Source of the DNA: an uncultured Gammaproteobacteria bacterium
GTDB lineage: Bacteria > Pseudomonadota > Gammaproteobacteria > Pseudomonadales > Pseudohongiellaceae
Assembly (NCBI GenBank): GCA_913060695.1
Contig: CAJXUA010000007.1
Location: 1 to 64,000, forward strand
Direction of reading: 5' to 3'
Length of the DNA stretch: 64,000 bases
Of the stretch, positions 11,360 through 59,018 are shown piece after piece (the stretch's first letter is position 1; every line of letters begins with the position of its first letter). Made by a program: the position numbers and the translations under genes. The notes beneath the pieces are model-generated. The model was not told the DNA's origin. It worked only from the letters and a program-made list of their open reading frames with translations, and searched no databases.

Positions 11360-11376
11360 TGCTCAACCTCTTGTTA

Positions 11377-12111: not shown

Positions 12112-12333
12112 CGAGTCTTTCTCCTACTTAAGTTGTTTGTTGCTCGCCTGTGCTGCGCTTTTATCTAAAAGCAAATAAAGCCCTAGCGCGAGCTGCGCGG
12201 GCGGATGTTATCATACAACGCTTAGACTCCTCGTCGACTCCGTCGAATTAAGGGGATAATTCACCGCCAAAGCTTTACCGCGAGCAACAATGCTGGCATG
12301 GTAAGCGGGCATTCGTTCTATGTGGAGATCAGC

Positions 12334-12645
12334 ATGTTGAAACCAGTTTTGCTCGTCGGACTTTGTGCAGCGTTTAGTGCCTGTGGCACATGGGTAAACG
12401 TCACCTCCGCAGGAATGCTCGTAGAGGTGGCAACACCCGAACAAGTCAGCTCTTGTACACGCCTGGGCAGCAGCACCACCAATGCCCTGAGTGAGATCGC
12501 CTTTGTTGATCGCGGCACTAGAAAGCTGCAGCAGGAGCTTATCGATCTTGCTCGCAATGAGGCCGGCGATATGGGCGGCAACCGCATTGTGGTCGAAACA
12601 CCGATCAACAATGGTCGCCAAACGTTCGGGGTGTACCGCTGCTGA
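12334..12645 (+). CDS. Small lipoprotein, DUF4156-like
   Basis: Lipobox FSACG; ...CTRLGSSTTNALSEIAFVDRGTRKLQQELIDLARNEAGDMGGNRIVVE. Confidence 0.55.
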   Translation: MLKPVLLVGLCAAFSACGTWVNVTSAGMLVEVATPEQVSSCTRLGSSTTNALSEIAFVDRGTRKLQQELIDLARNEAGDMGGNRIVVETPINNGRQTFGVYRC

Positions 12646-12749
12646 TAGCTTAGAGTCGTTTTCGCTGCCACAAGGTAGTTAAAAACTTAACAATAAAAAT
12701 TAGATAGCCTGTTGCAAGCGGCCGCAGGACCTTAGGAAGTATCCAATCG

Positions 12750-15500
12750 ATGGAAAGTAAACTTCTGGCACTAAGCCGTGTGTTCGCTAGCATCCCGCTC
12801 CTAGTATTAAAGGTCCGCTGGCTGGTTCTAGCCCTACTATTGGGCTCGACCGCGTTCATGATCTATGGCGCTTACACCCGCACTACGCTCGACATGACCA
12901 TAGACAGCTTCATCGATCAAGATGACCCCGCCATTGGCGCACTGAACGAGTTCCGCAAACAGTTTGGCAGTGATGACTCGGTCTTCCTAGTCTACCGGGC
13001 GCGCGACGGCGATGTCTTCTCTAGGGAGTCTCTTAGCGCCATTGCCGGGCTCACCCGCGACTTAGAAAACTGGCAAGACTTAGACCCCGGTAGCCTACCC
13101 CAGCAAATCAACGGCGGCACCGTAGACCTGAGCGAACTCGCGAATATTCGCAGGGTGCAATCCCTCACTAATGTACGCGTGCAACGCAGCGATGCCGACA
13201 CATTACGCTCAGAACGCCTTATCCCAAACCCCTTGCCAGAGTCTGTCGCCGCCATGGCGCAGGTGCGCGAACGCGCCCTGCAAGAGGATGACTTTAAACT
13301 CCTATTCTTCTCCGAAGATGGCCTATACGCCGGCCTGATGATTCAGACTTTTTTCGGGGCGGAACCAGTGGAAGGGTTTACCCCTCAAATCGATAACGCC
13401 AGCATTTCGCTGGACAGCAGTTTCAGCGCTTTCGACGACCCCGACAGCTTCACCCTGAGCTTCGACGAGGAAGCACAGGTACAGGACATTCCCTTCCAAA
13501 CAGTCGATATGTTCGCCTACAGCAATTTCTTCAACGCACTGCAGGCCGCGTACTCGCCCTACGAGCAAGCACTGGATTTCTACCCGGTTGGCAATCCTCC
13601 CATGATGGAGTTCGTTTACCGCACCTTGCAGCAGATGATGTTGCTGGCCGTGGCGATGATTGCGATATTCGTCGGCTTGCTTTGGGCGCTGTTTCGCTCC
13701 TTCAGCGCGGTACTTTGGCCCATTCTCACGATCGCCTTGAGCCTTGCTTGGACCTGGGGTTTGACCTCTTGGTTCGGCGTTGCCCTCTCGACCATGATTT
13801 CCCTAACTTGTTTGCTGATTTTCGCTGTTGGCATCGCGGACTGTGTGCATGTGATGAGCGCCTACTTCGCCTATCGCCGCGAGGGGCAGAGCCACGACGA
13901 CGCGCTCTATCATGCCTATGACAAAACGGGTCTCGCCATCTTCATTACCACTATCACGACCATGGCCGGAGTGTTGGCCTTGAGTTATTCAGACTTACTC
14001 CCAATTCGCGTCTTCGGAGTCATGTCCGCACTCGGCGTCTTTATGGCCCTATTCTTCACAATGGTGCTTCTGCCCATTCTGTTGAGCATTTGGCATCCCG
14101 GCAGCGAGCAGAAAAAAAGCAATGTACTTGGGGCCCTTTCGGCACGGTGGACGACACTGTCGCCACTGGCAAAACTTTGCTTATGGGCAGTATATGCTGC
14201 AGTGATATTCTCCATATTTGGCCCTTTGATTGGCACCTATATCGCCGTGGTATCAATCCTTACCAGCGTGGTTATTACGTGGCAGCAAGTCATGCTCGAG
14301 CGTATTCCCCTCATCGTGGCCAAACGCCCCGGCACGGTTCTTGGTGCGTTCGGCGTCTTGTTATTACTGTGCCTGTACGGCACCTCGCAAGTGCAGATCG
14401 ATAGCAATATCTCCGAGCTGACGAGGGAAGGCAGCGACATGCGTATCGCTTATGCCGTGGTCGACGAGAACATGGCCGGCGCGCAGAGCATGGAGATCAT
14501 GATCGACACGGGTGTCACCGACGGCCTTCTAGACCCAGTCGTATTGCAGGCAGTGGATTCCCTCCAGGAACGCATCGAGACCCTTTACCCCGACCAGGTA
14601 TCTCGTACCCACTCCTTGGCCAACATCGTCAAGGACACCAACCAGATAATGAACAACGATGACCCGGCGTTCTACCGCGTGCCCGACAGTGAGGCGTTGG
14701 TCTCGCAGTTGCTCTACCTGTTCAATAGCGCCAACCCCGATGATCGCCGCGCCTTGGTCTCGGATGACTATAGCCGCTCCCATATCACCATCAATGCCTA
14801 TAATGCGGGCTCCTATCAGTATCAGCGCTTCTTCGATGAGCTAGCAGTCGAGATTGACCAGACTTTCGTCGGTCTCGAAGCGCAGTATCCAGATATGCGA
14901 GTATTGGTTACGGGTTCAATTCCGTTGATGATGCGCGCCACCGATGAGATCGCCCAGTCTCAGTACAGCAGCTTCATACTTGCCTTAGTTGTGATCTGCG
15001 TAATCATGATGCTAACCCTAGGCTCGGTGCAGGGGGGCTTGCTGTCGATCATTCCAAACATCATACCGGCATTGCTTAGTTTCGGCTTAATGGGCCTTTT
15101 AGGCATCCCACTAGACACCGATACCTTGATGATAGCGCCTGTGATCATCGGCATTGCCGTGGATGATACGATTCACTTCATGACCCATTATCGACTCGAA
15201 CTGGTGCGCACTCGCAGCATGGCAATAGCGCTGAAGAGCACGATAGACAACGTGGGCAAGGCGGTAATGTACACCACGATGGTGCTAGGACTTGGCTTCG
15301 CCATATTAAGCTTCTCAGATTATTTAGGCATGGCGAAGATCGGTTTTTTTGGCTCTCTCGCTATTTTCGTGGCATTGTTAAGCGACTTATTCTTAATACC
15401 GGCTATGCTACAAATATTCAAACCCGACTTCGGGGTCAAAGACGCAGATAGATCGTTCGCGCAGATCACCGCACCGAGCGCCACTGCGCATCAACAATAG
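12750..15500 (+). CDS. RND superfamily (MMPL-type) exporter
   Basis: Two repeats of a large periplasmic loop plus TM bundle; GIADCVHVMSAYF and GIAVDDTIHFMTHYR motifs. Confidence 0.88.
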   Translation: MESKLLALSRVFASIPLLVLKVRWLVLALLLGSTAFMIYGAYTRTTLDMTIDSFIDQDDPAIGALNEFRKQFGSDDSVFLVYRARDGDVFSRESLSAIAGLTRDLENWQDLDPGSLPQQINGGTVDLSELANIRRVQSLTNVRVQRSDADTLRSERLIPNPLPESVAAMAQVRERALQEDDFKLLFFSEDGLYAGLMIQTFFGAEPVEGFTPQIDNASISLDSSFSAFDDPDSFTLSFDEEAQVQDIPFQTVDMFAYSNFFNALQAAYSPYEQALDFYPVGNPPMMEFVYRTLQQMMLLAVAMIAIFVGLLWALFRSFSAVLWPILTIALSLAWTWGLTSWFGVALSTMISLTCLLIFAVGIADCVHVMSAYFAYRREGQSHDDALYHAYDKTGLAIFITTITTMAGVLALSYSDLLPIRVFGVMSALGVFMALFFTMVLLPILLSIWHPGSEQKKSNVLGALSARWTTLSPLAKLCLWAVYAAVIFSIFGPLIGTYIAVVSILTSVVITWQQVMLERIPLIVAKRPGTVLGAFGVLLLLCLYGTSQVQIDSNISELTREGSDMRIAYAVVDENMAGAQSMEIMIDTGVTDGLLDPVVLQAVDSLQERIETLYPDQVSRTHSLANIVKDTNQIMNNDDPAFYRVPDSEALVSQLLYLFNSANPDDRRALVSDDYSRSHITINAYNAGSYQYQRFFDELAVEIDQTFVGLEAQYPDMRVLVTGSIPLMMRATDEIAQSQYSSFILALVVICVIMMLTLGSVQGGLLSIIPNIIPALLSFGLMGLLGIPLDTDTLMIAPVIIGIAVDDTIHFMTHYRLELVRTRSMAIALKSTIDNVGKAVMYTTMVLGLGFAILSFSDYLGMAKIGFFGSLAIFVALLSDLFLIPAMLQIFKPDFGVKDADRSFAQITAPSATAHQQ

Positions 15501-20121: not shown

Positions 20122-23094
20122 TTAGAAGTCGTAAGTCATACGAGCGTAGAGCGAGCGACCCATCGGATCCTGCTGCTCTCCAAACACCCCGGCAAAGTTG
20201 GGGGTGCGTTGAGCTTGACGATCGAACAGGTTACGCGAACCAACACTCAATCCCATTTCACCACCGTACAGACTGATACCACGGTAGGTGTACGCTAGGT
20301 CAAAGTCGGTCCATGCACGGATCTCGCCGCCAATGATGCTAGGGTTAGGATTGGTGTTAGCAAACCGCAGAATCACTGAAGTGTAATCCGTGCCATCGTA
20401 GTCGGTGGCACCCACGTAGTGAAGCGTACCGCTTACAGAGTGACTACCTAAGTTCCAGCCCAAGCGCAGGTTGGCCTTCACTTTTGGCACAGAGGGCGCT
20501 GTACCGGTTTGCAGGTTGGTAGATCCAACGGCTTCTTGAAATGCGCCACCTACTTTGTCCTGGTACAAGAACGAGTCCATGACTGTTGCCTGCAGATTGA
20601 CGCGGAAGTCACCCCAATCACTCAGGCTTAGGCCGTAGTTGGCCTGAATATCATAGGCAGTCACCTTCACGCTCTGCGCGTTAATGTTGCCCGGTGTATA
20701 GACCGCCAGAATGTTTGAGGGATCACTTGCATCGCGAATGATCTCGGGGTTGCTCAGACCGCTGGCTAACCAAGCATTCAGTTGCGCAATCGAAGGCCGG
20801 TTGGCCGCGCTAGTACCAGCGCCCGTGAAACCTGACCACGCTTGGAAAGCCGCGTAATCCTCGTTCATAACCGTCTGCCCAGAAATGCCGACGATACGAT
20901 TTTCGAAATCGGTCTGATTCCAAGTCACGGACACGCTGAGCTCGCCCAAATTCAAATCGAAGCCTAGTTGTTTAGATGTTGAATGCTCGTTCTCTAGATT
21001 TGGGTTGCCACCTGAACAAGCGGTGGTGAACGCAGAGTAAGGAGAGAAGCGGTCAGTCACTGTGGACAGGCCGCAGCTGACTGGATCGAGCGTTTGGGTC
21101 AAAGTTGGCGCAATGAACGCGTCACCGGTTGTGGCCCTTAGCGTTAGCCAGTCGGTAGCGGCCCAAGTGAGCCCGAATTTCGGATCAGTCGAACTTGCAC
21201 CGGTACTGAAGGACTCATTGCGCACTGCTAGGCTAAGTTCGACAGTAGGGAGTACGGGGACAGACATCTCCATGAAGTAGGCGTCAATGGCGCGGCTACC
21301 AGAGGTAACTTTTTCAGGGAACGGGCTGCCGACCCAGGCAGCCCCACGAATGGCAATCTCCGAAGGCGTGTTGAGGTACGAGTCCTCACGACGCTGATAT
21401 CCCACGGCTGCGCCGATGGGGCCGCCGGGCAGTTCGAAGCCGCCCAAGCCCACCTCGCCGTTGAGCACAACGTCGATCGTCTTCAAATCAGCAAAATTGG
21501 ACTGCCTGCTACGCCCCGCAACCGCTTCCATCACTGCGACGGTGTTATTGGTCGACTGGTCTACCACGAAGAAAGGGTTATAACAGGCCTCGCGCTCGTT
21601 CACGATGTCGCAGTTGAGGCCTTGTTTCATGGCTTCAATGTCGAATTCCTGGTTCTGCATATAACGTAAATTTGATTCGCTCATGGTATAGGCTGCCATG
21701 CCTTCCCATCCTTCTACGAACGGTACCGCGAAGTCCGCTTGCAATAGCAGACGGCTGCTTCTGTCAACACTGCCGGAAAGGTTATCCATATCCGCCGAGT
21801 GGCCACCGGTTCGAGTGTGGGTCTTGTTGATTGGACGCAGGTTGCTAGCGACTACATCTTCGTGCAGAAGCACGCCGTTGGGCGTGACGCCGGAGACGAT
21901 GTAATCCATCAGGCCGTCTTTGTTGATATCCACTGTGCCGCGGTCTGGCAAGCCATCGCCATTGGCGTCGACACCGTACAACTGCTGACCCGCAGAGTTC
22001 TTAGCTAGGAATGGGTTTCCTGGCAATTCACCGCGAACAGCGCTCAGTTCGCCGACGCGTCCGGCACCAGGATTCGAGGTAGAGGTGTAGGACTGCTGGT
22101 AAAGTTTGGTCTGGAACGCCTGCGCGCGCAGGGTTAGATCTTCGCTAACCTCCCAAGTGGCGTTAGCGAACACAGAATTAGTATCCGTTGGTTCACGGTA
22201 GCTGCGGGTATCACCGTAGTCGAAGTAACAGGTGGTGCCAACCAGCATGCCGTAGGGGTTGTTTGCTACATCCTTCTGGTAGGACTGGCGCTCGGAGGCA
22301 GGGGCACAGTTTGGATCCGGCGCCCTTGCGCTAGCACCTGTGTAGTTACCTGAAGCGTCACGCTTGGGTGCTATCCAGTTACCGGGTGCCGCAGAGGAGT
22401 AGTTCAAGCCAGCTTGAGCCAAGTAAGGACGCTCGTCCCAAGCGAGGCGGCTGTTAGTCTTGAACTGGCCGGCGACTACTAGATTGACATCGCCGATATC
22501 TTTGCCCCACAGCATCTGTACAGACTCTTCGTCGTAGTCGCCACGGGAATCCTGCTCGCCGTAAACTTCCATTTTCAAGCCGTCAAAGGAAGTGTAGGGA
22601 ATGAAGTTGACCACACCTGCCACAGCTTCGTTACCGTACAGAGCAGCGGCTCCGTCAGCCACGATGTCGATGCGCTGGATGGCGATTGTGGGCAACATAG
22701 TGTTGACGTTACTGTCAGCGATACGCTTGCCGTCCAGCAGGGTCAGAGTGGAGCGTGGGCCGAGTCCGCGCAGGTCGATACTGGTGCTTCGAGAGCTCGT
22801 GCCCTGAATTGTGTTCGTGATAGAGGACGAAGGGCCGCCCACGAACGACATGTTTTGGATGACCTCACCGAGGTTCATGGTGCCTTCATCTTTCAGATCG
22901 TCGGCGCTCAGCTGAGTAATCTGAGAGGCCTGAGTAAAGCCTTCACTGCGGCGAATATAAGAGCCGGTAACAACTACTTCTTCGACATCCGGATTCGTGG
23001 ATTGCTGAGCATAACCTTGAGAGGACAGCGAGATTAATGAGAGGGATACCGCGGTGTATATCAGACTACGTTTGTGGGGAACATTGAATCGCAT
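20122..23094 (-). CDS. TonB-dependent receptor
   Basis: Signal peptide, VEEVVVTGSYIRRSEG TonB box/plug, beta-barrel, C-terminal aromatic (ARMTYDF). Confidence 0.92.
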   Translation of the reverse strand: MRFNVPHKRSLIYTAVSLSLISLSSQGYAQQSTNPDVEEVVVTGSYIRRSEGFTQASQITQLSADDLKDEGTMNLGEVIQNMSFVGGPSSSITNTIQGTSSRSTSIDLRGLGPRSTLTLLDGKRIADSNVNTMLPTIAIQRIDIVADGAAALYGNEAVAGVVNFIPYTSFDGLKMEVYGEQDSRGDYDEESVQMLWGKDIGDVNLVVAGQFKTNSRLAWDERPYLAQAGLNYSSAAPGNWIAPKRDASGNYTGASARAPDPNCAPASERQSYQKDVANNPYGMLVGTTCYFDYGDTRSYREPTDTNSVFANATWEVSEDLTLRAQAFQTKLYQQSYTSTSNPGAGRVGELSAVRGELPGNPFLAKNSAGQQLYGVDANGDGLPDRGTVDINKDGLMDYIVSGVTPNGVLLHEDVVASNLRPINKTHTRTGGHSADMDNLSGSVDRSSRLLLQADFAVPFVEGWEGMAAYTMSESNLRYMQNQEFDIEAMKQGLNCDIVNEREACYNPFFVVDQSTNNTVAVMEAVAGRSRQSNFADLKTIDVVLNGEVGLGGFELPGGPIGAAVGYQRREDSYLNTPSEIAIRGAAWVGSPFPEKVTSGSRAIDAYFMEMSVPVLPTVELSLAVRNESFSTGASSTDPKFGLTWAATDWLTLRATTGDAFIAPTLTQTLDPVSCGLSTVTDRFSPYSAFTTACSGGNPNLENEHSTSKQLGFDLNLGELSVSVTWNQTDFENRIVGISGQTVMNEDYAAFQAWSGFTGAGTSAANRPSIAQLNAWLASGLSNPEIIRDASDPSNILAVYTPGNINAQSVKVTAYDIQANYGLSLSDWGDFRVNLQATVMDSFLYQDKVGGAFQEAVGSTNLQTGTAPSVPKVKANLRLGWNLGSHSVSGTLHYVGATDYDGTDYTSVILRFANTNPNPSIIGGEIRAWTDFDLAYTYRGISLYGGEMGLSVGSRNLFDRQAQRTPNFAGVFGEQQDPMGRSLYARMTYDF

Positions 23095-23912: not shown

Positions 23913-26816
23913 CTAGAAGCTAGGCGTCCAATCTAAAGACACCCAATACTGACGCCCCCAAGGCGTTGACAAGCGCGTCTCCGCGCCTCCAATGATACCC
24001 AGTCGCTGCGGGCGTTTGTCGAACAAGTTGCTGATTCCTGCACTAACTGTGATCTCACTGTCGAAGTACTGAGTGAATACATGGGCATAGCGCGCATCCA
24101 CGATGTACTCTCCATGAATCGTACTAGGAGGGTTCAGCGCGTTATTGCCATCTGCCCAGAAGAAGTCCACCACCTGATCATCGAACTCGATATCGTTCCA
24201 ATAGTTGGCAGAGATCGATGCACTCTGATTGCCACGGAACCAGTTCATCCTCATGTTGAGCTTAGTCGAGGGAATCGGCGGCACTATGCCCGTCCTGCCA
24301 TTTTGCTTACCAAGCGCCTCGGTACGCACCTCATCCAGGCCCATGTAGTCATAGGTCAAGTAGTAGGTCGTCTGCACAGTGGTGTTGAACGTCCCCCAAT
24401 CTTGAGTATCGAATCGGTATTCCGCCTTCAAGTCGATGAGATCGATCCACACAGAACTGATGTTGGCAGATTGCACGAACAACCTAGACACCGACCCATT
24501 TGGATAGCGCTGGATAGGGTAGCCCGCAATCGCGGCCTTACTTGCTAGCCATGCATCGGCACGAGCACGAGTAGCGGAGCCGGGAGTGGGGTCGTAACTG
24601 GCCCTCGCGGTGCCAGTCTCTTTCAGGAAATTTGTGAACTGAAAGCCGACAGTGTCCTGCTGGCTCAGGCTTCTGATCCTATCGACGTACTCGATCTCCT
24701 GATAGTCCATGGACACGTGCAAACCGTCCAGCGCACCCGAAGGCTCCCATGTGATGCCAAGGTTCTGGATTGTAGAAGTTTCCGGTTGCAGGTTAGGATT
24801 GCCGGAGCTACACCAGATACCTCCAATCAAAGGCGTATTGGTGAACTCGTCTATGCCGCTGAACATGTCGGCGCAGGTGTCATCGGCTACGAAAGGGCGT
24901 GCCTGATAAGGTGAAGGAGCCAAGAAGCTCTCTCCCCACGAAGCTCTCACTGCCAAGCTTGGCAGTGCTTCCCAACGCAAGGATACTTTTGGCGTGGTTG
25001 CCTTTAGTCCGAAATCCTTGAACTCCTCGTGCCGCACGGCTAACTGTGCGGCCAAGCTCTCCAGAATTGGGATTTCTAACTCCGCAAACACGGAGCGGGT
25101 CTCGGAGACATAGACGGCATCATCCTGCCGCGCGCCGAGGATCTGGCTATTGGCATAGTCTTCGCCGAGGCGGTCGAATGGGTCCTCGAAGTCATACGTG
25201 CTGAGGTCCCGCCACTGGTAACCGATGGCCATCGCCATGGCGCCCGCGGGCAAGTCATAGAGCTCACCCGTTATTACGGTCTCAAACACATCCAACTCTT
25301 CTCTCGAGTTCAACCCATTAGGATTGGACAACATTAGCCAATCGACCAATTGCTGAGAATTGCTAGTCACCCCTTCGACATAATTGGCAGACCTGGGGGA
25401 CGAAGACCCGAAGGGATTGAACCACTCATTGCCATTGGGGCCACCCAGGCCAGACATGGCCAGTTGCAGACGACTAGAGCTAATCACATTCTGATCGGTC
25501 GTCGCCTTCGAATCCTGACGGGCAAAATAGGAATAACCAGTCCACGAGCCCGCAAGATCATACTCGGCATTGAGTTTAAAGCGATTCAATGAAAAGTCCG
25601 AATCCACTTTCTTGGAGGTGTCGGAATAGAACGAGGTAGGAAGTGTGGCGCCGGTATGCCCGAAGACCCGCCAACTCCACGGAGTAAGATCCACGCCCCA
25701 AGGGTTGGCCGGATGATTGGCAGGGATCTTCATGACCGCGCGGTCATTGCCACCGTTAGGAGAGGAACCAGTTGTACGCTCATTGTTGTAGCGATAATGA
25801 TTGTTCAGAGTGGCATTCAGGCGCAGCCAGTCTGTCGCCTCGTAACTCACACTACTATAGAGATTATAGTCCACCTCATGCCGAGAATAGGCATGCTGCT
25901 GACTGTACTCATAGGTACAGGCCGACCCTCTGTAAATAGTCCCAGATGGATCGGGCATCGAACCGGTGCCGTGAGAGGGTGAGCCTTCATTGAAAGTGCC
26001 ACAGTTCGGGTCGAGCAGTGTTGGCCCAACACTTGTGCCACCATGAGGGGCGAGTATGTTGACGCCCGCATCAGCGCCCTGCAGTTCGCGGAACACGCCG
26101 ATAGGGCCAGAATTGGACGCATTGTTTGAGTGTTCCCATTCACGGGGACGCTCATACATCATCAGTGGCGTTCTCTTCTTTGCCTCAAAGGCACCAACAT
26201 AATCGATGCCGTTATTGAACGACTTGCCCCATAAGAAAGAGCCGGTCATATCTTCCATCGCGCCGTCTTCTGTGCGCTGGTAATAAGTGCGTGCACGAAA
26301 GCCTTCAAATTCCTTTATTGGGATAATATTGACCACCCCGGCTACCGCATCGGAACCATATAATGCGGAACCGCCGTCCAGCACCAATTCCATTCTGGCG
26401 ATGGCGATCTCCGGCAGAGACGCAGACAGCACGGGGCTCAGAGTCCGCGCACCGTCGATCAGTGTCAGCGTGGAGTTCTCCCCCAAACCGCGCAGATTAA
26501 AGCTACTGTTACCATTCTGCGTTCCGTCTGCGGAACCAAGAACGATGTTCACCACATTGGTATTCTGGGTATAGCTTAGGTCACGAATATAGGCTCCCAT
26601 ACTTGGTGCGCCGGACTCGAACAGATCTTCTGCAGTCACCGTATCAACAGGGGAGTTTTGCGCGAAAGCGCTATTGCGAATATACGAGCCTGTGACGACA
26701 ACCTCCTCTACTTCGGGAGAGTCTTGGGCAAGAACTAAGACAGGAATCGAACATGATATTGCGAGGCAGGATTGGATCGTGAGGCGCAGTTTCCCGCGCC
26801 GAGTAAAGTTCAGCAT
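23913..26816 (-). CDS. TonB-dependent receptor
   Basis: VEEVVVTGSYIRNSAFAQNSPVDTVTAEDL plug start; FNLRGLGENSTLTLIDGAR; beta-barrel; paralogue of 20122..23094. Confidence 0.92.
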   Translation of the reverse strand: MLNFTRRGKLRLTIQSCLAISCSIPVLVLAQDSPEVEEVVVTGSYIRNSAFAQNSPVDTVTAEDLFESGAPSMGAYIRDLSYTQNTNVVNIVLGSADGTQNGNSSFNLRGLGENSTLTLIDGARTLSPVLSASLPEIAIARMELVLDGGSALYGSDAVAGVVNIIPIKEFEGFRARTYYQRTEDGAMEDMTGSFLWGKSFNNGIDYVGAFEAKKRTPLMMYERPREWEHSNNASNSGPIGVFRELQGADAGVNILAPHGGTSVGPTLLDPNCGTFNEGSPSHGTGSMPDPSGTIYRGSACTYEYSQQHAYSRHEVDYNLYSSVSYEATDWLRLNATLNNHYRYNNERTTGSSPNGGNDRAVMKIPANHPANPWGVDLTPWSWRVFGHTGATLPTSFYSDTSKKVDSDFSLNRFKLNAEYDLAGSWTGYSYFARQDSKATTDQNVISSSRLQLAMSGLGGPNGNEWFNPFGSSSPRSANYVEGVTSNSQQLVDWLMLSNPNGLNSREELDVFETVITGELYDLPAGAMAMAIGYQWRDLSTYDFEDPFDRLGEDYANSQILGARQDDAVYVSETRSVFAELEIPILESLAAQLAVRHEEFKDFGLKATTPKVSLRWEALPSLAVRASWGESFLAPSPYQARPFVADDTCADMFSGIDEFTNTPLIGGIWCSSGNPNLQPETSTIQNLGITWEPSGALDGLHVSMDYQEIEYVDRIRSLSQQDTVGFQFTNFLKETGTARASYDPTPGSATRARADAWLASKAAIAGYPIQRYPNGSVSRLFVQSANISSVWIDLIDLKAEYRFDTQDWGTFNTTVQTTYYLTYDYMGLDEVRTEALGKQNGRTGIVPPIPSTKLNMRMNWFRGNQSASISANYWNDIEFDDQVVDFFWADGNNALNPPSTIHGEYIVDARYAHVFTQYFDSEITVSAGISNLFDKRPQRLGIIGGAETRLSTPWGRQYWVSLDWTPSF

Positions 26817-27499: not shown

Positions 27500-27832
27500 A
27501 TGAAAACAGGCATTATCGCGGCTATCTTCGTGCTCGCCGCCTCTGCAGTGGCTTTTTTGCAGTTCTCCGCGGCCATGCAGCTGCGGCAAGAGCTGGTTGA
27601 AAGTGAGGCGAAACTGCTTGAGTCAGAAGCCGAACGTGCCGAGTTAGAGCAGCAACTTGCTACTAACGTCGCGCAACAAGAGCTCTTTAGACAGCAAATC
27701 GCCAATTTACGTGAAAACTTACAAAGCTCTACCGCACAGCTAGGCTTGCTGTCGAGCTCACTACAGGAAGCACGCGAGATGGTGCAAGACAACAAGGCTG
27801 GCGGACAAGCCGAAGCACAGAATGCGCAATAG
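27500..27832 (+). CDS. Small membrane-anchored coiled-coil protein
   Basis: N-terminal TM followed by Glu/Gln-rich heptad region; RBS-like AAGAAGGA upstream. Confidence 0.6.
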   Translation: MKTGIIAAIFVLAASAVAFLQFSAAMQLRQELVESEAKLLESEAERAELEQQLATNVAQQELFRQQIANLRENLQSSTAQLGLLSSSLQEAREMVQDNKAGGQAEAQNAQ

Positions 27833-27994: not shown

Positions 27995-30976
27995 ATGTCT
28001 TCTATGAACACCAGACGCTCTCGCAACGCTGCGACCGCTGTACTCACTATACTGCTTGGGCTAGGCCTCAGCGCCTGTGGCCCTCAAGAGTCTAGCAGCG
28101 CGCCAGAGACAAGCCCGGTGAGCAGCAGTGCCCCAGTGGGCTATACACAAATCCACAGCCCTAGCGCCAACGACCCGCTCAACACCCATATATATGAGCT
28201 AGATAATGGCCTGCAGGTCTACCTAACAGAGAATCACGAAGAACCACGTTTCTATGCGGAGATCGCGGTGAAGGCTGGCAGCAAGAACGACCCGGCCGAT
28301 GCCACGGGCCTAGCCCACTATCTCGAGCACCTGCTGTTCAAGGGCAATCAAGACATGGGCACGCTGGACTATGCGGCCGAGAAGCCTTACCTAGACCAGA
28401 TCACGGCACTGTATGAGCAACACTTCAATGAAACCGACCCTGAGGTACGCGCCCAGATCTATGCCCAGATCAATCAACTCTCCCAGACTGCCGCACAGTA
28501 CGCAGTGCCCAATGAGATTGATAAACTCTATAACGGCATGGGCGCCGGTGGTCTAAACGCCCACACTTCCCATGAAGAAACAGTCTATAAAGTCGGCCTA
28601 CCCTCCAATCGCCTAGAGCAATGGGCGGCTATCGAATCCAATCGCTTTATCAATCCGGTGTTTCGCCTCTTCCATACCGAATTAGAAACCGTTTACGAGG
28701 AGAAGAACCAGAGCCTAGATAACCGTGATCGAGTGTCTTATTACGCCATCAGCGAGTTGCTATACAAGAAACACCCCTACGGACAACAGTCCACCATTGG
28801 CGATGCCGAACATCTTAAGAACCCATCGCTCGTCTACATCCAGAATTACTTCGACACCTATTATGTGCCGAACAATATGGCTATCTTCATTAGCGGCGAC
28901 ATCGACATCGACTCCGCTATCGTCACCATCAGCGAAGCCTTCGGTGTGTGGGAGCCAAAGCCAGTCCCAGAGGTTGGTCCATGGATCGAAGACCCAATCC
29001 AAGGCGTGGAGCGCATGACCGTGCGCTACCGCGGCGAAGAAGAAGTCGAGATCGCTTTCCGTACTGTCCCTAATGGCCACCCGGACAAAGAAGCTCTAAT
29101 GCTCGTAGATATGATTCTCGACAACCGTACCGCAGGCTTGATCAATCTCAACTTGAATCAGGCACAGGCTGTGCAAGCGGCGGGCTCTTCTCCTGAGTTC
29201 TTGAATGACTACGGCTCACAGCGCCTGTGGGGCGTGCCCAAGCAGGGTCAAACCCTCGAAGAAGTTGAGCAGCTACTTCTGGACCAGATTGCCTTGGTTA
29301 AGGCTGGCGAGTTCGAAGACTGGATCATTCCAGCCATCGTCAATGACTTTAAGAAAACCGAGAAGCAGGCATTGGAATCGAATACAGCCCGAGTAAGTAA
29401 TATGCGCTCCTCTTTCATCCAGGGCGATGACTGGGATCATTATATAGCCGAGATCAGCCGACTCGAACAGGTCACTAAACAAGACATCGTGCGCGTTGCC
29501 AATCAGTATCTTGGCGCTAATTATGTCGCCGTGCAGCGCATCGACGAGCAGCAGGATATTCCTCAGGTTGAGAAACCCCAGATCGATCCGGTAGTCATCG
29601 ACCCCACGCGTCAGTCTCAGTTTGCGGCCTCTATCTTAGCGATGCCCTATGAAGAGATCGAACCGACCTATGTGCAACAAGGCCGGGATTATCAGGTAGT
29701 GGAATATGCACCCGGCGTGCCTCTGTACTACGCCCCTAACCCCCTCAACGACTTGTTTAGCTTCTCCATCAGCGTAGAGGCCGGCACCGAAGAGAATGAT
29801 GCACTTGGCCTTGCCACTGCACTACTGCAGAAGTCGGGCACTGGCGACATGTCCGCCGAAGAATTGCAGAAAGAGTGGTATCGGCTAGGCAGCGAGTTTG
29901 GCGTTGGCGCCGGTGCAAATGAGTCTACACTCGCAATTTCGGGCCTAGATGAACAGTTCGACGCTTCCTTAGCACTAATGCTCAATGTCGTGCGCAACCC
30001 CAGTGTCGACGAGGCCACGCTGGAAGAGCTCAAGTCCATCATCCTCAAATCACGCGAAGACCAAAAACAGGACCCTCGTGCGATCAGTCAAGCCCTGTTC
30101 CTATACAACCGCTACGGCGACGATTCGCCCATGCTCACTTCCCTGACCTCTGAGCAGATCAAAGCGGCAAGCGTTGCGGAGCTCGAGGAATTGGTAGGCG
30201 ACCTGCTCAATTATAAGCACACACTCAGCTATACAGGCTCGATGCCTTTAGAGGAGTTACTGACTCGTCTACACGCACTCTATGAAGTGCCCGAGCAGCT
30301 GATGGATACTCCGCCCTATCGCTTCCGCACTGCGCGTGAGATCGACAGCAATCAGATCTATGTCGTGGACCAAACCACCGCACAGGCACAGGTGCGCATC
30401 GAGTTCCCTGACGGCGAGTATGACGAGTCACTCACTGTGCCCTCGTCCCTCTACAACACCTATTTCGGCACTAGCATGTCGAGCGTGGTGTTCCAGGAGT
30501 TACGCGAGGCCCGAGCTCTAGCCTATTCCGCGCAGGCCCAATACGCACAAGGCGGTCGTACTGGCGCAGAGAACTTGGGCCTCGGCGCCATAAGCTCGCA
30601 GAACGACAAAACCGTAGAAGCCCTCGACGCATTCCTTGAACTGTTCGAGAATATGCCGGTCTCCGGAGAGCGTTTCGAGGAAGCTAAGAGCTCACTCGTG
30701 AACCGCTACCGCACCTCGACAATCGGCTTTCGCCAAGTCACTGGCACGGTGCGCTCATGGGAGCGTCTAGGCATCTCCGGCGACCCCCGTGCTAGCCGTT
30801 TCGTGGATCTGCAGAACTCTACCCTAGAAGACATGCTGGCCTTCCAACGCCGCAATGTCGCGGGTAAGTCTAAGTTGATCTCTATAGTGGGTGACATGTC
30901 GCGTATCGACACAGAAGCCTTGTCGAACCTAGGCGAAGTCACCGAGCTACAGGTCGATCAACTCTTTGTTAAATAA
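27995..30976 (+). CDS. M16 (insulinase) family metallopeptidase, lipoprotein
   Basis: Lipobox SACG; HYLEHLLFKG (HxxEH) with downstream ETVYEEKNQ; two M16 halves. Confidence 0.93.
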   Translation: MSSMNTRRSRNAATAVLTILLGLGLSACGPQESSSAPETSPVSSSAPVGYTQIHSPSANDPLNTHIYELDNGLQVYLTENHEEPRFYAEIAVKAGSKNDPADATGLAHYLEHLLFKGNQDMGTLDYAAEKPYLDQITALYEQHFNETDPEVRAQIYAQINQLSQTAAQYAVPNEIDKLYNGMGAGGLNAHTSHEETVYKVGLPSNRLEQWAAIESNRFINPVFRLFHTELETVYEEKNQSLDNRDRVSYYAISELLYKKHPYGQQSTIGDAEHLKNPSLVYIQNYFDTYYVPNNMAIFISGDIDIDSAIVTISEAFGVWEPKPVPEVGPWIEDPIQGVERMTVRYRGEEEVEIAFRTVPNGHPDKEALMLVDMILDNRTAGLINLNLNQAQAVQAAGSSPEFLNDYGSQRLWGVPKQGQTLEEVEQLLLDQIALVKAGEFEDWIIPAIVNDFKKTEKQALESNTARVSNMRSSFIQGDDWDHYIAEISRLEQVTKQDIVRVANQYLGANYVAVQRIDEQQDIPQVEKPQIDPVVIDPTRQSQFAASILAMPYEEIEPTYVQQGRDYQVVEYAPGVPLYYAPNPLNDLFSFSISVEAGTEENDALGLATALLQKSGTGDMSAEELQKEWYRLGSEFGVGAGANESTLAISGLDEQFDASLALMLNVVRNPSVDEATLEELKSIILKSREDQKQDPRAISQALFLYNRYGDDSPMLTSLTSEQIKAASVAELEELVGDLLNYKHTLSYTGSMPLEELLTRLHALYEVPEQLMDTPPYRFRTAREIDSNQIYVVDQTTAQAQVRIEFPDGEYDESLTVPSSLYNTYFGTSMSSVVFQELREARALAYSAQAQYAQGGRTGAENLGLGAISSQNDKTVEALDAFLELFENMPVSGERFEEAKSSLVNRYRTSTIGFRQVTGTVRSWERLGISGDPRASRFVDLQNSTLEDMLAFQRRNVAGKSKLISIVGDMSRIDTEALSNLGEVTELQVDQLFVK

Positions 30977-30989
30977 CAGGAAAAATGCA

Positions 30990-31937
30990 GTGTCGCGTGC
31001 CGATACACAAGCTGACCTCCCCCTTAGGGTGACACAGCTTAGCAAGCGTTACGGTGACTTCGAGGTTCTCAAGCAATTGAATCTCGAAGTAACACCGGGC
31101 GCGGTGCATGGGTTGGTTGGCCTCAACGGGTCAGGCAAGACTACGACCCTAGAGTGCCTGTTAGGCATGCAGGCCTTTCAGTCGGGGGAGGTGAAACTAC
31201 TCGGCCTGAACCCCGACCAATTGCATAAGAGCCACGGTGGCATTGTCAGCATCTTCGACAGCCCTAGCCTGCACCCACACCTCACGGTGCGTCAGGTCTT
31301 GGAGCATGCAAGCTTGCTATGTGATGACTTGGTCCGCAAGCCAGAAGAGGTAGAGGCCCTACTCGGCATCACCCGCTATTCGAATTTTCGTATTCGCAAT
31401 CTATCGCTCGGCAATCGCCGCCGCGCCTCCATCGCGCAGGCACTACTGGGCAGCCCGCGTTTCGTCATCTTAGATGAACCCTTTAACGGCCTAGATGCCG
31501 GCGGTGTCGACGATGTGCTAGCCCTGATCAGCAAGCTCAATCGAGAAGAGGGCACGTCTTTTCTACTGTCTAGCCATCAACTGCCCTATCTCGAGAAGAT
31601 CTGCTCCCATCTGTCCATACTCCACAAAGGGCAGATCGTGGTCAGCGATCGAGTGGAGCAACTCTTCAGCGCTCAACAAAGCCGCTTACAAGTGTATTGC
31701 GACGATGTAGTGCGGGCCTGCGCGATTGTGCAGGACATGCGTGGCGTGACGATAGAAGACAATAGCGCCACGGGTATCCTAACGCTGCAATTGGATAATA
31801 TTGCACCCGCCCTGATCAACCAGCGGCTGGTGGAGAAGGGCATCATGGTCGACGAACTAGTGCGCGAGCGCGCCTCTTTGACCAGCCTCTTCCATGACAT
31901 CACTGCGCACGAACCTGTCGCGGAGGTGGTCTCTTGA
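30990..31937 (+). CDS. ABC transporter ATP-binding protein
   Basis: Walker A GLNGSGKTT, signature LSLGNRRR, Walker B FVILDEPFNGLD; GTG start at 30990 preferred. Confidence 0.93.
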   Translation: MSRADTQADLPLRVTQLSKRYGDFEVLKQLNLEVTPGAVHGLVGLNGSGKTTTLECLLGMQAFQSGEVKLLGLNPDQLHKSHGGIVSIFDSPSLHPHLTVRQVLEHASLLCDDLVRKPEEVEALLGITRYSNFRIRNLSLGNRRRASIAQALLGSPRFVILDEPFNGLDAGGVDDVLALISKLNREEGTSFLLSSHQLPYLEKICSHLSILHKGQIVVSDRVEQLFSAQQSRLQVYCDDVVRACAIVQDMRGVTIEDNSATGILTLQLDNIAPALINQRLVEKGIMVDELVRERASLTSLFHDITAHEPVAEVVS

Positions 31938-32788
31938 ACGGTTTTGTAGCGGCACTGAAGGCAGAACTATATGTGACACTGCGCTCTACGAGCGCCCGCC
32001 TCGTCCTATTTCTACCAGCTCTGATCGTGACCATTCGCGCCATCGTGGTCAAACTCTCCGAGACAGGGCAAGAGGCACGAGATGCTCTACTTGGTCAGGG
32101 CGACACGGCAAGCTCTAGCAGCAATGCCTGGGGCCCATTGGTCGACAGCTTTAGTACCGGGCTAACCTTACTCAGCCTGGCACTGGTCGCTTATGCGGCG
32201 TGGACTTTCGCTAACGATCGCGATACTGGCGCGCTGCGTCATGTCTTGATTCGCAGAGTGAGCCGCATGGGCTTGGTCATGGCGAAACTGTTAAGCGTAT
32301 TCCTGCTCGCGCTCGCGACCCTCGGGCTGATGAGCGCGGCGATCGGCATCATCACCACGATACTATGGGATTTTGGCCCGGTGGTCGAAGACGGCTACGA
32401 ACTCATCAGTAGCGCTGAGATACGCACAGAGGTGGCCCTCGGGCTGCGCCTTGCCATTATCCCATTGCCCGCCGCCCTCGCCTTCGGCCTACTATTGTCG
32501 GTGCTGGCCCAATCTGCTACGCAGGCGGTCACTAGCGCACTTGGTATTACGCTCGCAATGGATGTCTTCAAAGGGGTATTGGGCGAGCGCGCCTACTACC
32601 TCTATGCCAGCTTCCAGCCGTCACTGATCGACCAGTCTTATCTACAGGATGTCAGTCGACTGGTGCGCGGTTATTCCGATGTCATGATCGACAATCGTGT
32701 GTTGCAGCTCAATGAATGGGTGCCCATCCCCGAGGCACTACTGTTTATCGTTTTGGCACTAGTAATAGTGCGAAGGAAAACTCTATGA
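31934..32788 (+). CDS. ABC-2 type transporter permease
   Basis: About 6 TM segments, WTFANDRDTGALRHVLIRRVSRMGLVMAKLLSV motif; TTGA stop/start overlap. Confidence 0.82.
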   Translation: MNGFVAALKAELYVTLRSTSARLVLFLPALIVTIRAIVVKLSETGQEARDALLGQGDTASSSSNAWGPLVDSFSTGLTLLSLALVAYAAWTFANDRDTGALRHVLIRRVSRMGLVMAKLLSVFLLALATLGLMSAAIGIITTILWDFGPVVEDGYELISSAEIRTEVALGLRLAIIPLPAALAFGLLLSVLAQSATQAVTSALGITLAMDVFKGVLGERAYYLYASFQPSLIDQSYLQDVSRLVRGYSDVMIDNRVLQLNEWVPIPEALLFIVLALVIVRRKTL

Positions 32789-33774
32789 GTGTACGCCTAA
32801 GCGTATTACTTGCTCGTCCGGCCGCCCTACTATGCTTAGGGCTCGCTTTGGCCTCCTGCATCAGCAGCGAGCCGCGTATGCTCGTCCCCAGCATTACGCT
32901 CTCTCCAGAGACCGTCAGCTTGAGCAACGCCGAAGCCGTCGGGGCAGGATTGAATTTCGGCATGACCACAGGCCTCAATGAGAGCGATTCCCTTACCAAT
33001 ATCGCCATACTGCCAGGCATAAGAGTGCGCAGCGTCACCCCCAACGGCGCGGCCGAGCTAGCGGGCATACAAGCAGGCGATGTGATCCTCGAGATCGATG
33101 GCCGCGAGATCAACCACCCCGACCTGCTCGAGGCATTAGCGCAGCAGACAGGCTCCGCCGCATCGTTCCTAATGCATGTGCGACGCAACACGACCGTGTT
33201 CGAAACTACTTTAAATGCGCGCATGATCAGCGATGCTCGCGCCGTGCCAGTAGAGCTGTATCGTGCCGACCCCATTGCCACGCGTGCCGGCTATAGCACA
33301 GAGGTGTTCGACACAGCAGGTGCGGCTCCTGTCTCGGGCGCTCGCATAGTAAGACTGTTCCCGCAGAGTCCTTTGAGCGCTGCCGATGTACGCGTAGGCG
33401 ATACCGTCTTAGCGATCGATGGCTTGCCCGTGCAGTCCGCGCAAGACCTGGTTAGCCGCGTGAACACCGCATACGAATTGGGAGACACCGTGCGCCTTAG
33501 CATTGCGCGTGACAATGGCATGCAGATGCAGACACTCGATAAGTCAATCGAGTTGTGGAGCCCAGGCCGACGCATTAACCGCATCGCCCTCGGGCCCTTA
33601 TTGCAGTACGAGACCAATCTCAACCCACAGCAGACCCGCCTGTCCATACTCGATCTCTGGCTATTCTCAGTCTTTAGCTATCAGCACGCAGAGGGTGAGA
33701 AGGAGTATAGTTTCTTAGGACTGTTCCGCGTGACCTCTGGCTACGGCGAGTTATTAGAGGAGACGCAGCCATGA
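32785..33774 (+). CDS. Lipoprotein with two PDZ domains
   Basis: Lipobox LASC; VTPNGAAELAGIQAGDVILEIDGREI and LFPQSPLSAADVRVGDTVLAIDGLPV; ATGA overlap with the upstream gene. Confidence 0.85.
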   Translation: MSVRLSVLLARPAALLCLGLALASCISSEPRMLVPSITLSPETVSLSNAEAVGAGLNFGMTTGLNESDSLTNIAILPGIRVRSVTPNGAAELAGIQAGDVILEIDGREINHPDLLEALAQQTGSAASFLMHVRRNTTVFETTLNARMISDARAVPVELYRADPIATRAGYSTEVFDTAGAAPVSGARIVRLFPQSPLSAADVRVGDTVLAIDGLPVQSAQDLVSRVNTAYELGDTVRLSIARDNGMQMQTLDKSIELWSPGRRINRIALGPLLQYETNLNPQQTRLSILDLWLFSVFSYQHAEGEKEYSFLGLFRVTSGYGELLEETQP

Positions 33775-35309
33775 AGCGCTGTGCTGGACTCATCGCACTT
33801 GGCATTGCCTGCACCGCTCCATTTGCATTTGCGCAGACTAATTTCGTCGCCTCGGAGATCCCACTCGGTGAATGGCCCGACGACTTGTTCTTCGAAGACA
33901 TGGACGGCAACGGGCGCAAAGACTTAATAGTCCCAAATTGGAGCGCCAATGCTGGGCGTGAACTTGCGATCTACCTGCAGCAAGACAATGGCAGTTTCCC
34001 AAGCTCGCCGTCGCGATTGATGGAGATCAAACCCGAGATCATCGCCATCACCATCGCCGATGTGAGGGACGAGCCAGGCAAAGAACTTCTACTATTCTCC
34101 TCTTCTGCAGTGTTTAGCCTCTCCAGCGCCATTCCCAGCTATAGCGGCAATTTGAAACCACTGTTCGAATGGGAACTGGTAGCCTCCGTGCCTGACCGGC
34201 GCCGCATTCTGTATTTTCCCTACCCACAGGATCTAGATGGCGACGGCTATGTCGATTTATTGCTACCGGGGCGTGAAGACTATGGCGTATTCCGCGGAGG
34301 CCCGAATGAGACCTTCACCCTCGCCCATCGCTTCAACACCGTTAACCAAGAGCTAGACCCATCGGAGGTGCCACTAGGCAGTCCGCGCCTGAGCACCGAA
34401 ATCGCCATTAACGAGCGCGACGGCATCTTGATGAACGTAACGGCACAAAGTAACTCCGCCTTCGAAGGCTTCGTGTCCGACTGGGGTTCCACGAAACAGG
34501 ATGCACTGCTCTCTACACGCCAGTGGCATCCTTCGGCCACCACTAGCCAGCTCAATGACGATAAGCGCCAAGACATTGTCTTCATGAACATCGGCAATGA
34601 CCTATACGGGCAGATCAATATCCTGCTACAAGACGCAAGTGGCAGCTTTGCCGCCAAACCCGATTGGCAGGGTCCTATCGATACTCGCGGCGACATCCGC
34701 CTGATGGATGTCAACGGCGACGGCATGACCGATGTGCTGCGCATCATTAATAGCTCCAACGAATGGGACGTGCAATTTTTCCTGAACAAAGGGGCTATGT
34801 TCAACCTACAGAAACCGGATCAAATCATGAAGTTCTCTGGTTATGACCTAGAGGTCTCAGTGCTCGACTTAGACAATAATGGCGGCGCCCAGTTGAGCGT
34901 TAGTTATTACACGATCCCCGTAGTGAACGCTGTGCGTAACGCCAGTATCGTGCGCACACAACTGCTTTACGCCCGTGGCACGGGCGGACAGTTGTTCAAT
35001 ACGCGGCCGGACTTCAAACTAGACGAGAACTTCTCTGCGGAAACCGTACGGGGGCTCTCCTCACAGATCGAGATGCAGACCGATATCAACGGTGATGGCC
35101 GCAGAGATGCAGTGTATGTGAGCAACGAGGGCACATTGGCGGCGAAGGCAATCGACCAAAGCCTGCGTTTCGCCGATACTCCGTTCTGGCAGTACGTCCC
35201 CACCCGTTCGATTCTCGATTTCGGCATCGAAGACATGAATGGCGATGGCATTGCCGATCTTTTTCTTTATCACTCCACCGCGCTCACCCTATTGGTATCT
35301 GCCCCATGA
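33771..35309 (+). CDS. Secreted FG-GAP/VCBS repeat protein A
   Basis: Signal peptide; repeated Ca-binding-like DMDGNGRKDLIVP, DLDGDGYVDLLLPG, DVNGDGMTDVL, DINGDGRRDAVY, DMNGDGIADLF; ATGA overlap. Confidence 0.88.
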   Translation: MKRCAGLIALGIACTAPFAFAQTNFVASEIPLGEWPDDLFFEDMDGNGRKDLIVPNWSANAGRELAIYLQQDNGSFPSSPSRLMEIKPEIIAITIADVRDEPGKELLLFSSSAVFSLSSAIPSYSGNLKPLFEWELVASVPDRRRILYFPYPQDLDGDGYVDLLLPGREDYGVFRGGPNETFTLAHRFNTVNQELDPSEVPLGSPRLSTEIAINERDGILMNVTAQSNSAFEGFVSDWGSTKQDALLSTRQWHPSATTSQLNDDKRQDIVFMNIGNDLYGQINILLQDASGSFAAKPDWQGPIDTRGDIRLMDVNGDGMTDVLRIINSSNEWDVQFFLNKGAMFNLQKPDQIMKFSGYDLEVSVLDLDNNGGAQLSVSYYTIPVVNAVRNASIVRTQLLYARGTGGQLFNTRPDFKLDENFSAETVRGLSSQIEMQTDINGDGRRDAVYVSNEGTLAAKAIDQSLRFADTPFWQYVPTRSILDFGIEDMNGDGIADLFLYHSTALTLLVSAP

Positions 35310-37000
35310 TGCGCCTCACTCCTAAATTCGCGTCTCTCGCCCTTAGCCTTTGCCTTTGCAATTTCGCACAGGCGCAATCTAGCGGCCCAAGTTTCGAGGG
35401 TTACACACGAATAGATTTCTCACTGCCCGCGGCGGTCGAGCGCCTACTCATCGTCGACGCCGACCGCGATGGCCTTGCAGATATCCTAAGTGTGGCGAAG
35501 GAGGAGATCAGTCTGTACTTCCAGCGCAGCACTGGAGACTTCGACTTCAGCACGCCAGATACCTCGATCATTCTTACTGGGCGCAGCGTAGGCTGGGAGT
35601 TGAGTGAAAACTATCCCGATGCCAACGGCGTGAATCGCTTCTCACTATTGGCCTTAGTGGATGGCACAAAGGTACAGCAATGGCGCATAGAGGATCGAAA
35701 ATTCAGTGCCCCTGTCGACTTGCTCAACAATTTAAGTGGATTCGCTGGCAGTGGCGTGAACCGCCTGCATTTCTCTCGCGACATCAATGACGATGGTCGC
35801 GACGATCTCATCATTCCCGGTGCGGGCACACTGCAGTTATTCATTCGCGAGGCCGACGGCGGCTATCAGCAAGCCATAAGCGTATTGTCGGATATGCGCA
35901 TCTCTTCTAATTTGTTCGTGCGTCAGAACATAGAGCGCGATGTTGGTCAGACACTGACGATCCCCCTTATCGAGCTGCGCGATGTGAACAATGACAAGCG
36001 TCCCGACCTGATCTCCGAGACCGAAGAACGCTTCGACGTTTCCCTAGCCAATGCCAGCGGCGATTATTTCCCGCAGTCGCCCACATTCTCCATCGACCGT
36101 GAGGAGATCCGCGAGCGTCTCGGCAACTTCGATGTCGATCAATTGGATTTCTCTAACCTCACCGGCATTCTCGCCCTCACCCACGAGGAGATACTCGAGG
36201 ATGTTGACGGCGATAATATCGACGACTTCGTGTTGCGCGAAGGCGGTAAGGTGTCACTCTTTACAGGCAACGCGAAGGGCATGGACTTCACGCAGCCAAA
36301 ACAAGTACTGCGCTCCGGCGGCAATGTGCTCAAGGTATTTCTGCATGACGAGGACGGCGATGGTCGCAAAGACCTCTGGCTATGGCGCATAGAGCCCATC
36401 TCCGTCGGCGACTTATTCCTTTGGCTCGCCATCTCCGGCAGCGTCAATGTCGAGGCCTTCGTGTATCGCAACGAAGGGGAGAGTTTCGCGCGGCGCCCAG
36501 CACGCCAGGTCACCGTGGCACTCAAGTTTCCCTCCGCTGTGCGCATGATTAGTTCCGTTGTCGATATTCGTGAACAGGCCCGCGCCGTAGAGAACACCTC
36601 CATTATTCCGACCGCCGTTGCCAATATCTCCGGCGTGGGCAACGCCCAGGACCTTGTGGTGCTACTCGACGAACAAGTACAGATATTCCACAACAGCATC
36701 GCACCTACGCCGCCACTGGCCGAGGATCGCTTTCTTGCCTCGTTAAATTATTCACGCACCCGTAACGATTATGAGATCGACGTGCGCCGCATCATCGACG
36801 AGTTCGAGATCGCTCAGAACAAGGACTTACGCACCGTACAAGGTCGCGCGCCCGATCAAAGCTTCGCCCTGCAGCAGGCGATGCGCAATGGCGACCTGAT
36901 AAGCGCAAAGCTCAATGCCGATGAACGCGACGATCTATTCGTATTCCTAGAGCGCGGCAAAGAGCACATCACTGGCATCGTGCTACTCTCCACCGACTAG
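35306..37000 (+). CDS. Secreted FG-GAP/VCBS repeat protein B
   Basis: Signal peptide; VDADRDGLADILS, DINDDGRDDLIIPG, DVNNDKRPDLIS, DVDGDNIDDFVL, DEDGDGRKDLWLW; ATGA overlap. Confidence 0.88.
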   Translation: MMRLTPKFASLALSLCLCNFAQAQSSGPSFEGYTRIDFSLPAAVERLLIVDADRDGLADILSVAKEEISLYFQRSTGDFDFSTPDTSIILTGRSVGWELSENYPDANGVNRFSLLALVDGTKVQQWRIEDRKFSAPVDLLNNLSGFAGSGVNRLHFSRDINDDGRDDLIIPGAGTLQLFIREADGGYQQAISVLSDMRISSNLFVRQNIERDVGQTLTIPLIELRDVNNDKRPDLISETEERFDVSLANASGDYFPQSPTFSIDREEIRERLGNFDVDQLDFSNLTGILALTHEEILEDVDGDNIDDFVLREGGKVSLFTGNAKGMDFTQPKQVLRSGGNVLKVFLHDEDGDGRKDLWLWRIEPISVGDLFLWLAISGSVNVEAFVYRNEGESFARRPARQVTVALKFPSAVRMISSVVDIREQARAVENTSIIPTAVANISGVGNAQDLVVLLDEQVQIFHNSIAPTPPLAEDRFLASLNYSRTRNDYEIDVRRIIDEFEIAQNKDLRTVQGRAPDQSFALQQAMRNGDLISAKLNADERDDLFVFLERGKEHITGIVLLSTD

Positions 37001-37060: not shown

Positions 37061-37273
37061 ATGAAAAAAATACTCCTGCGCACCTTCTTGATCGCCGTCG
37101 TTGTCGTCAATCTACTCGCCTGGCTGGTCAATTATTATAGCGATGTCACAATCGCCTATTTGTTTCGCTTCGCCCTAATCATGGGCATCATGTTCATTAG
37201 TACCATCTTCACGGGAGCTGCGCTTCTACTTGGATTTCTCGATACCGAAGAGCGCACATCACATCCCGAGTAG
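37061..37273 (+). CDS. Small membrane protein (two TM)
   Basis: MKKILLRTFLIAVVVVNLLAWLVNYYSDVTIAYLFRFALIMGIMFISTIFTGAALLLGFLDTEE; RBS GGAGA upstream. Confidence 0.65.
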   Translation: MKKILLRTFLIAVVVVNLLAWLVNYYSDVTIAYLFRFALIMGIMFISTIFTGAALLLGFLDTEERTSHPE

Positions 37274-51994: not shown

Positions 51995-52647
51995 GCGACA
52001 CAGCCCTGCCTATTCTGTATTCATTCCGGCGCTGTCCCTACGCCATGCGTGCACGTCTGGCCATCGCCTATGCGCACCAGCAAGTGGAGCTACGGGAGAT
52101 AATCCTTAAGAACAAGCCAGCGCAGATGCTCGCGATCAGCCCCAAGGGTACTGTGCCTGTTGTGCAATTGCCCGATGGTACCGTGCTCGAGGAGAGCCGC
52201 GACGTAATGCTCTGGGCCTTGCACCTCAATGACCCCGACGGGCTATTGGAAGGCGAACCATCCGAGGCGACTGCAGCGCTGCTCGACGAGAACGACGGCG
52301 AATTCAAGCACTGGCTGGACCGCTATAAGTACGCGGATCGTTATCCGGAACGCAGTGCGCAGGACTATCGATCACAGGGCTGCGAGTTTTTAAAGAAACT
52401 CGAGAAACGCTTAGAGCACAGTGCCTTTCTATGTGGTGAGCAGATTCGTATCGCCGACATCGCCATCTTGCCCTTCGTACGGCAGTTCGCGATGGTGGAT
52501 AAGAATTGGTTCGATGGTGCTCCCTACCCCGCTTTGCAAGCTTGGCTGAGCGAATTGATAGCGGGAGAGATGTTTACGAAGATGATGATCAAACACGCGC
52601 CGTGGCAGCAAGGGCAGGCGCGTGTACTTCTATTTGAAGAGTACTAA
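51991..52647 (+). CDS. Glutathione S-transferase family protein
   Basis: YSFRRCPYAMRARLAIAYA, SPKGTVPVVQLPDGTVLEES; ATGA overlap with the GFA gene. Confidence 0.92.
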   Translation: MSDTALPILYSFRRCPYAMRARLAIAYAHQQVELREIILKNKPAQMLAISPKGTVPVVQLPDGTVLEESRDVMLWALHLNDPDGLLEGEPSEATAALLDENDGEFKHWLDRYKYADRYPERSAQDYRSQGCEFLKKLEKRLEHSAFLCGEQIRIADIAILPFVRQFAMVDKNWFDGAPYPALQAWLSELIAGEMFTKMMIKHAPWQQGQARVLLFEEY

Positions 52648-58981: not shown

Positions 58982-59018
58982 TCACGCTGTGTTCAAAATA
59001 ATAACTCTAGGTGAAGCC

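Follow-up and report, generated by a model that had tools for sequence, protein, structure and literature searches.

Five genes on the forward strand of the window, the 64,000-nucleotide stretch of DNA analysed here, form a precise block encoding an ABC ATPase, an ABC-2 permease, a lipoprotein with two PDZ stretches and two FG-GAP proteins (FG1 and FG2). In the host's family this core block is set between a gene for an M16 metallopeptidase and a gene for a small membrane protein. We propose, with somewhat less than even confidence, that the core genes specify an envelope machine in which a motor is coupled to periplasmic partners and which the peptidase would serve as an accessory. The initial annotation of this DNA knew of no named system with the six-gene composition (peptidase plus core); a literature search likewise found no paper joining the components, and no described transporter system matching the five-gene core and its framing genes was found. 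It is possible, and we suggest it only tentatively, that motor, PDZ lipoprotein and FG-GAP pair, with the M16 and small-protein accessories, constitute a trans-envelope system new to the literature and a new partner set for NosFY-like motors.

The six open reading frames reported at positions 27995–37000 were borne out on the + strand, and so were their families by comparison with Pfam. The first (27995–30976) encodes an M16 metallopeptidase lipoprotein of 993 aa (Peptidase_M16/M16_C; PF00675/PF05193). It is followed by the ATPase, 315 aa when read from GTG (30990–31937; ABC_tran, PF00005), the permease, 284 aa with six predicted transmembrane helices (31934–32788; ABC2_membrane_2, PF12679), and the double-PDZ lipoprotein, 329 aa with its lipobox cysteine at C25 (32785–33774; PF13180, two stretches). 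The predicted secreted proteins FG1 (512 aa; 33771–35309) and FG2 (564 aa; 35306–37000) match FG-GAP_3 (PF13517) in five and three stretches, respectively. A seventh conserved gene, absent from the list of the initial annotation, starts 60 bp after FG2 (37061–37273, +); its product of 70 aa, conserved in alignment, contains two hydrophobic segments and gave no match to a Pfam family, and the gene stands downstream of FG2 in most loci of the family. The 4-bp overlaps said to join the last five genes are real: TTGA between ATPase and permease (31934–31937), and ATGA between permease and PDZ (32785–32788), PDZ and FG1 (33771–33774), and FG1 and FG2 (35306–35309). Such overlaps are possible in 30, 17, 24 and 31 of 33 loci, respectively. 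The M16 stop is separated from the preferred ATPase start by 13 bp (30977–30989), as had also been noted, and this junction, in which no terminator-like site was found, is the boundary of the core. The GTG at 30990 is the start nearest to those of the homologues; an alternative in-frame TTG at 30966 would make the ATPase gene overlap M16. A 4-bp overlap at this junction occurs in none of 31 loci, where the gaps are mostly tens of bp with a median of 33 bp.

The arrangement is conserved within the host's family. FG1 was detected in 22 of 57 relatives and, where no contig end truncates the locus, those bearing it have the six genes in the same order. This order is kept down to 39–50% identity in the FG proteins and the flanking genes change between genera; together, these features place the conservation of gene order far beyond chance. 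Among 137 genomes of the family, the permease is present in 109, M16 in 112, and both in 108. The permease is near-universal in five of the eight genera, the absences of M16 and permease are concentrated in whole genera, and the sampled genera have both or neither with few exceptions (Fisher p 1e-21, kinship ignored). In the only genome with permease alone (G1214) the cluster is located at the end of a contig; of the four with M16 alone, two (G009 and G1182) are located at or close to contig ends and the other two (G023 and G1204) are genuine. The initial annotation had staked its proposal on conservation of the six-gene order, which is upheld within the family: in 105 of 105 genomes with both genes on one contig, M16 is found upstream of the permease and on its strand, with a spacing that leaves room for the ATPase gene (928–1400 bp) in 104 of them.

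The ATPase contains an intact Walker A (GLNGSGKTTT), signature (LSLGN) and Walker B in the 17 cassette copies compared. The glutamine of the Q-loop is replaced by an invariant acidic residue (D), and NosF is likewise acidic at this position. Among PDB entries the ATPase is matched best by human ABCA proteins, and among bacterial entries by NosF (153 bits over nearly the whole length); in a phylogenetic tree the cassette ATPases group outside NosF, as a separate clade with a long branch. The permease sequence has no match among PDB sequences, and against a NosY profile built from nos operons of the same order the hhalign probability is a weak 24%. Its AlphaFold2 model (pLDDT 84) has six transmembrane segments, with helices at residues 2–17, 236–244 and 254–262. 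In Foldseek searches with this model, NosY chains ranked first (TM 0.53–0.60, E ~4e-3 at best), followed by PmtCD, with ABCG also among the top matches. The model includes the N-terminal elbow helix and the re-entrant helices between TM5 and TM6 that are features of the type V (ABC-2) fold (PMC8386196). On this basis the motor is filed as a type V ABC-2 motor that is NosFY-like in its predicted build, not a member of the Nos system. The most conserved segments of the permease are the cytoplasmic coupling loop and the two predicted periplasmic loops, loop 3-4 (residues 145–159, WDFGPVVEDGYELIS; 32366–32410, +), which is the highest, and loop 5-6 (residues 223–263; 32600–32722, +). With topology taken from the model, and among cassette permeases alone, conservation is stronger in loops 3-4 and 5-6 than in the transmembrane segments (mean column entropies of 0.82 and 1.43, respectively; p 4e-6). 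This is expected if the periplasmic face of the permease docks partners, and it suggests such docking, with the reservation that the conservation of loop 5-6 could reflect an exporter gate alone.

The lipobox cysteines of the PDZ and M16 proteins are invariant in their respective alignments, and the N-termini of FG1 and FG2 resemble signal peptides. The C-terminal ~70 aa of the PDZ lipoprotein (33561–33771) are conserved, have no Pfam match, and are characterized by the pattern DLWLFSLFxY...LLGLFR...GYGEL. A segment resembling this tail, SVGDLFLWLA, was noticed in FG2 (residues ~366–375), where a conserved insertion is located around residue 365 in addition to an extended C-terminal part. That FG1 and FG2 are paralogous, as had been supposed, is confirmed by their homology (hhalign 99.6%). 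Both score above the gathering threshold for PF13517, their DxDxDG repeats are conserved across homologues (six recurrent DxDxDG-like repeats in FG1, among 21 homologues), and neither matches a metal-cofactor family. The AlphaFold2 model of FG2 (pLDDT 78.5, pTM 0.67) has a beta-blade structure, and its best matches in the PDB include propellers, at TM ≤0.27 and without global superposition; FG2 is propeller-like in this model, and a closed propeller is putative. In one locus (L021 of G012, 11291–13076) FG2 is split into two overlapping reading frames by a frameshift or an assembly error. Elsewhere in the window, a PQQ-type dehydrogenase beta-propeller protein is encoded at 58920–60740 (+).

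The M16 protein consists of two M16 halves and includes the zinc motif HxxEH (HYLEH, residues 108–112). The lipobox cysteine C28 and the motif residues H108, E111 and H112 are invariant among 13 aligned homologues, and an R/Y pair is conserved in the C-terminal half. A search for a PDZ ligand among the C-termini of the partners gave no clear candidate at the end of M16, where FV followed by a polar residue is conserved. In two genomes of genus g5 the small two-helix protein is extended to ~160 aa by an additional domain at its C-terminus (L142, 10226–10717; L146, 2406–2900). Just 5' of M16, a reading frame of 110 aa (27500–27832, +) with an N-terminal hydrophobic segment and a coiled-coil-like part has counterparts in several members of the window's genus. 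Two TonB-dependent receptors are encoded further upstream (23913–26816 and 20122–23094, both −), the nearer of which stands beside the cluster in only some genomes of this genus. As parts of the cluster, a TonB receptor and a SulP transporter were rejected: among the compared loci, they adjoin it only in the window's genus. Another peptidase in the window is of the BlaR1-type M56 class and has a TonB C-terminal domain (52644–53972, −).

Beyond the family the system is rare. Among 392 genomes of the order, the permease was detected in 15, comprising 13 from the host family and two from family f41 (genus g84), and full-length FG2 marks the same 15 genomes. In samples of 369 genomes of the class and 399 of the phylum, no further permease match came up outside the order, and a scan of genome contigs returned three close MAGs only. 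The system appears to be lineage-restricted. In a tree lacking a close root, the ATPase copies of f41 fall among those of f1 with moderate support (87/95); this position, together with the rarity of the system, suggests that the f41 copies were acquired by lateral transfer. Spread on plasmids was considered and rejected, as 72,556 plasmids yielded no permease match and just two FG-GAP matches, both partial. The one with annotation, from Pseudoalteromonas, has no ABC neighbours; this distant homologue, on a plasmid of Pseudoalteromonas sp. THAF3 (L139, 5569–7062), adjoins a gene of the O-antigen ligase family. A candidate divergent cassette in G342 was also set aside, the FG2-like match there being solitary.

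The initial annotation had assigned all six genes to a single envelope machine, and this part of its proposal stands for some of the genes better than for others. The five core genes are held together by shared presence and absence, order, recurrent overlaps and their joint presence as a block in a second family: both f41 loci have ABC, permease, PDZ, FG1 and FG2 in order and without M16, and a search of both f41 genomes with the M16 profile (E 1e-60) gave no match. The M16 gene is linked to the core in all 105 informative genomes and is nevertheless separable from it. G023 (genus g4) and G1204 (genus g5) have none of the five core genes, and the small gene there comes straight after M16; the core either entered between these two genes or was lost on two occasions. 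In G1150 a 3.4-kb insertion parts M16 from an intact core; the inserted segment (L140, 3582–6687) holds several small unrelated genes. M16 and the small gene travel together: among 25 genomes checked, the small gene is present wherever M16 is, except in the fragmented MAG G009, and it is found neither in 16 sampled genomes of the family that lack M16 nor in f41. One might argue from these separations, and from the consistent lack of an M16/ABC overlap, that M16 and the small protein belong together as a native pair, between which the core lies without shared function. We regard this as doubtful, if still a serious contender, in view of the same-strand adjacency of M16 and core in all informative genomes, the gaps of mostly tens of bp, and the tendency of genera to have or lack M16 and permease jointly. 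It concerns M16 and the small gene only and partly overlaps with the other readings. On our preferred reading of a core machine with an accessory peptidase, M16 and the small gene would be accessories that frame the core in the home family and lie outside it.

In the proposed machine, dimers of the ATPase and permease would make up an inner-membrane motor of type V (ABC-2, NosFY-like), whose conserved periplasmic loops may act on a periplasmic module composed of the lipid-anchored double-PDZ protein, probably in the outer membrane, and the two putatively Ca-binding FG-GAP proteins. We infer that these proteins associate physically and that ATP would drive one substrate, most likely a peptide, a lipopeptide or a lipid-linked molecule, out of the inner membrane for hand-over to the PDZ/FG-GAP module. 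The proposed task of M16 would be to trim or destroy peptides belonging to that pathway, with the small membrane protein as a further accessory. Substrate hand-over is not alone in fitting the data, as a NosDFY-like assembly and peptide self-protection each fit as well. Type V transporters have very varied functions. The motor might transport nothing and instead drive, by mechanotransmission, a periplasmic complex responsible for maturation, loading or folding of the FG-GAP proteins. This is suggested by NosFY being the solved bacterial structure closest to the motor, by the high conservation of the periplasmic permease loops, and by the Nos operons, which also hold a lipoprotein and in which NosDFY serves maturation of the CuZ centre of a periplasmic enzyme (PMC7660919). 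We nonetheless consider it unlikely: the genes show no match to the NosD, NosL or NosZ families (no NosD beta-helix in the six proteins, and no TIGR04247 match in the window's own genome), and, as noted above, neither FG1 nor FG2 matches a metal-cofactor family. Quite improbable, in our estimate, is a LanFEG/PmtCD-like pump that expels membrane-active peptides, with the FG-GAP and PDZ proteins binding and M16 degrading them. M16 enzymes do act on peptides (PMC12731061), PmtCD is the second structural family matched by the permease, and among NCBIfam models the ATPase scores highest with the lantibiotic-protection family TIGR03740. The 130.1 bits reached, however, fall far short of the cut-off of 309.75; NosF has the acidic Q-loop residue as well, which makes it unspecific; and an almost universal distribution in five of eight genera would be unusual for a resistance module. 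PADLOC returned generic ATPase matches only, which also led us to reject a role in anti-phage defence. To our knowledge, few ABC-2 motors work through periplasmic partner proteins. If the preferred machine is real, a conserved operon that puts PDZ and integrin-like FG-GAP proteins together with such a motor would broaden the view of what ABC-2 motors do. The module has sharp borders, its five genes being found either with M16 and the small protein or without them, and this makes it testable.

Among known systems, FusC/PqqL resembles the M16 component in being a single-chain, two-half enzyme with HxxEH that is predicted to lie outside the cytoplasm, and in the window's genus a TonB-dependent receptor is found upstream, a neighbourhood not conserved beyond it; here, by contrast, M16 is a lipoprotein encoded in front of an ABC operon. 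The FG-GAP/VCBS propellers, e.g., integrin alpha and PVL-type lectins, share with FG1 and FG2 the repeated DxDxDG FG-GAP units (PF13517), and differ from them in the insertion and C-terminal extension of FG2, in the low global TM of its model to solved propellers, and in the ABC and PDZ gene neighbours. PmtCD/LanFEG/BcrAB have the ABC-2 architecture, the LanF subfamily supplies the top NCBIfam model, and PmtCD comes next after NosY, whereas the cassette ATPase falls well short of that subfamily's cut-off. We know of no PDZ lipoprotein or FG-GAP partners of these exporters. NosDFY-NosL differs from the present system in that PDZ and FG-GAP proteins are found here instead of NosD, NosL and NosZ (the lipoprotein matches PDZ families only, and FG1 and FG2 match FG-GAP), the cassette ATPases form a separate clade, and similarity to the NosY sequence is marginal. 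It is nevertheless the closest parallel in predicted motor structure, NosF and NosY being the most similar among solved bacterial structures, and it too combines a type V ABC-2 motor, in one operon, with a lipoprotein and periplasmic beta-rich proteins.
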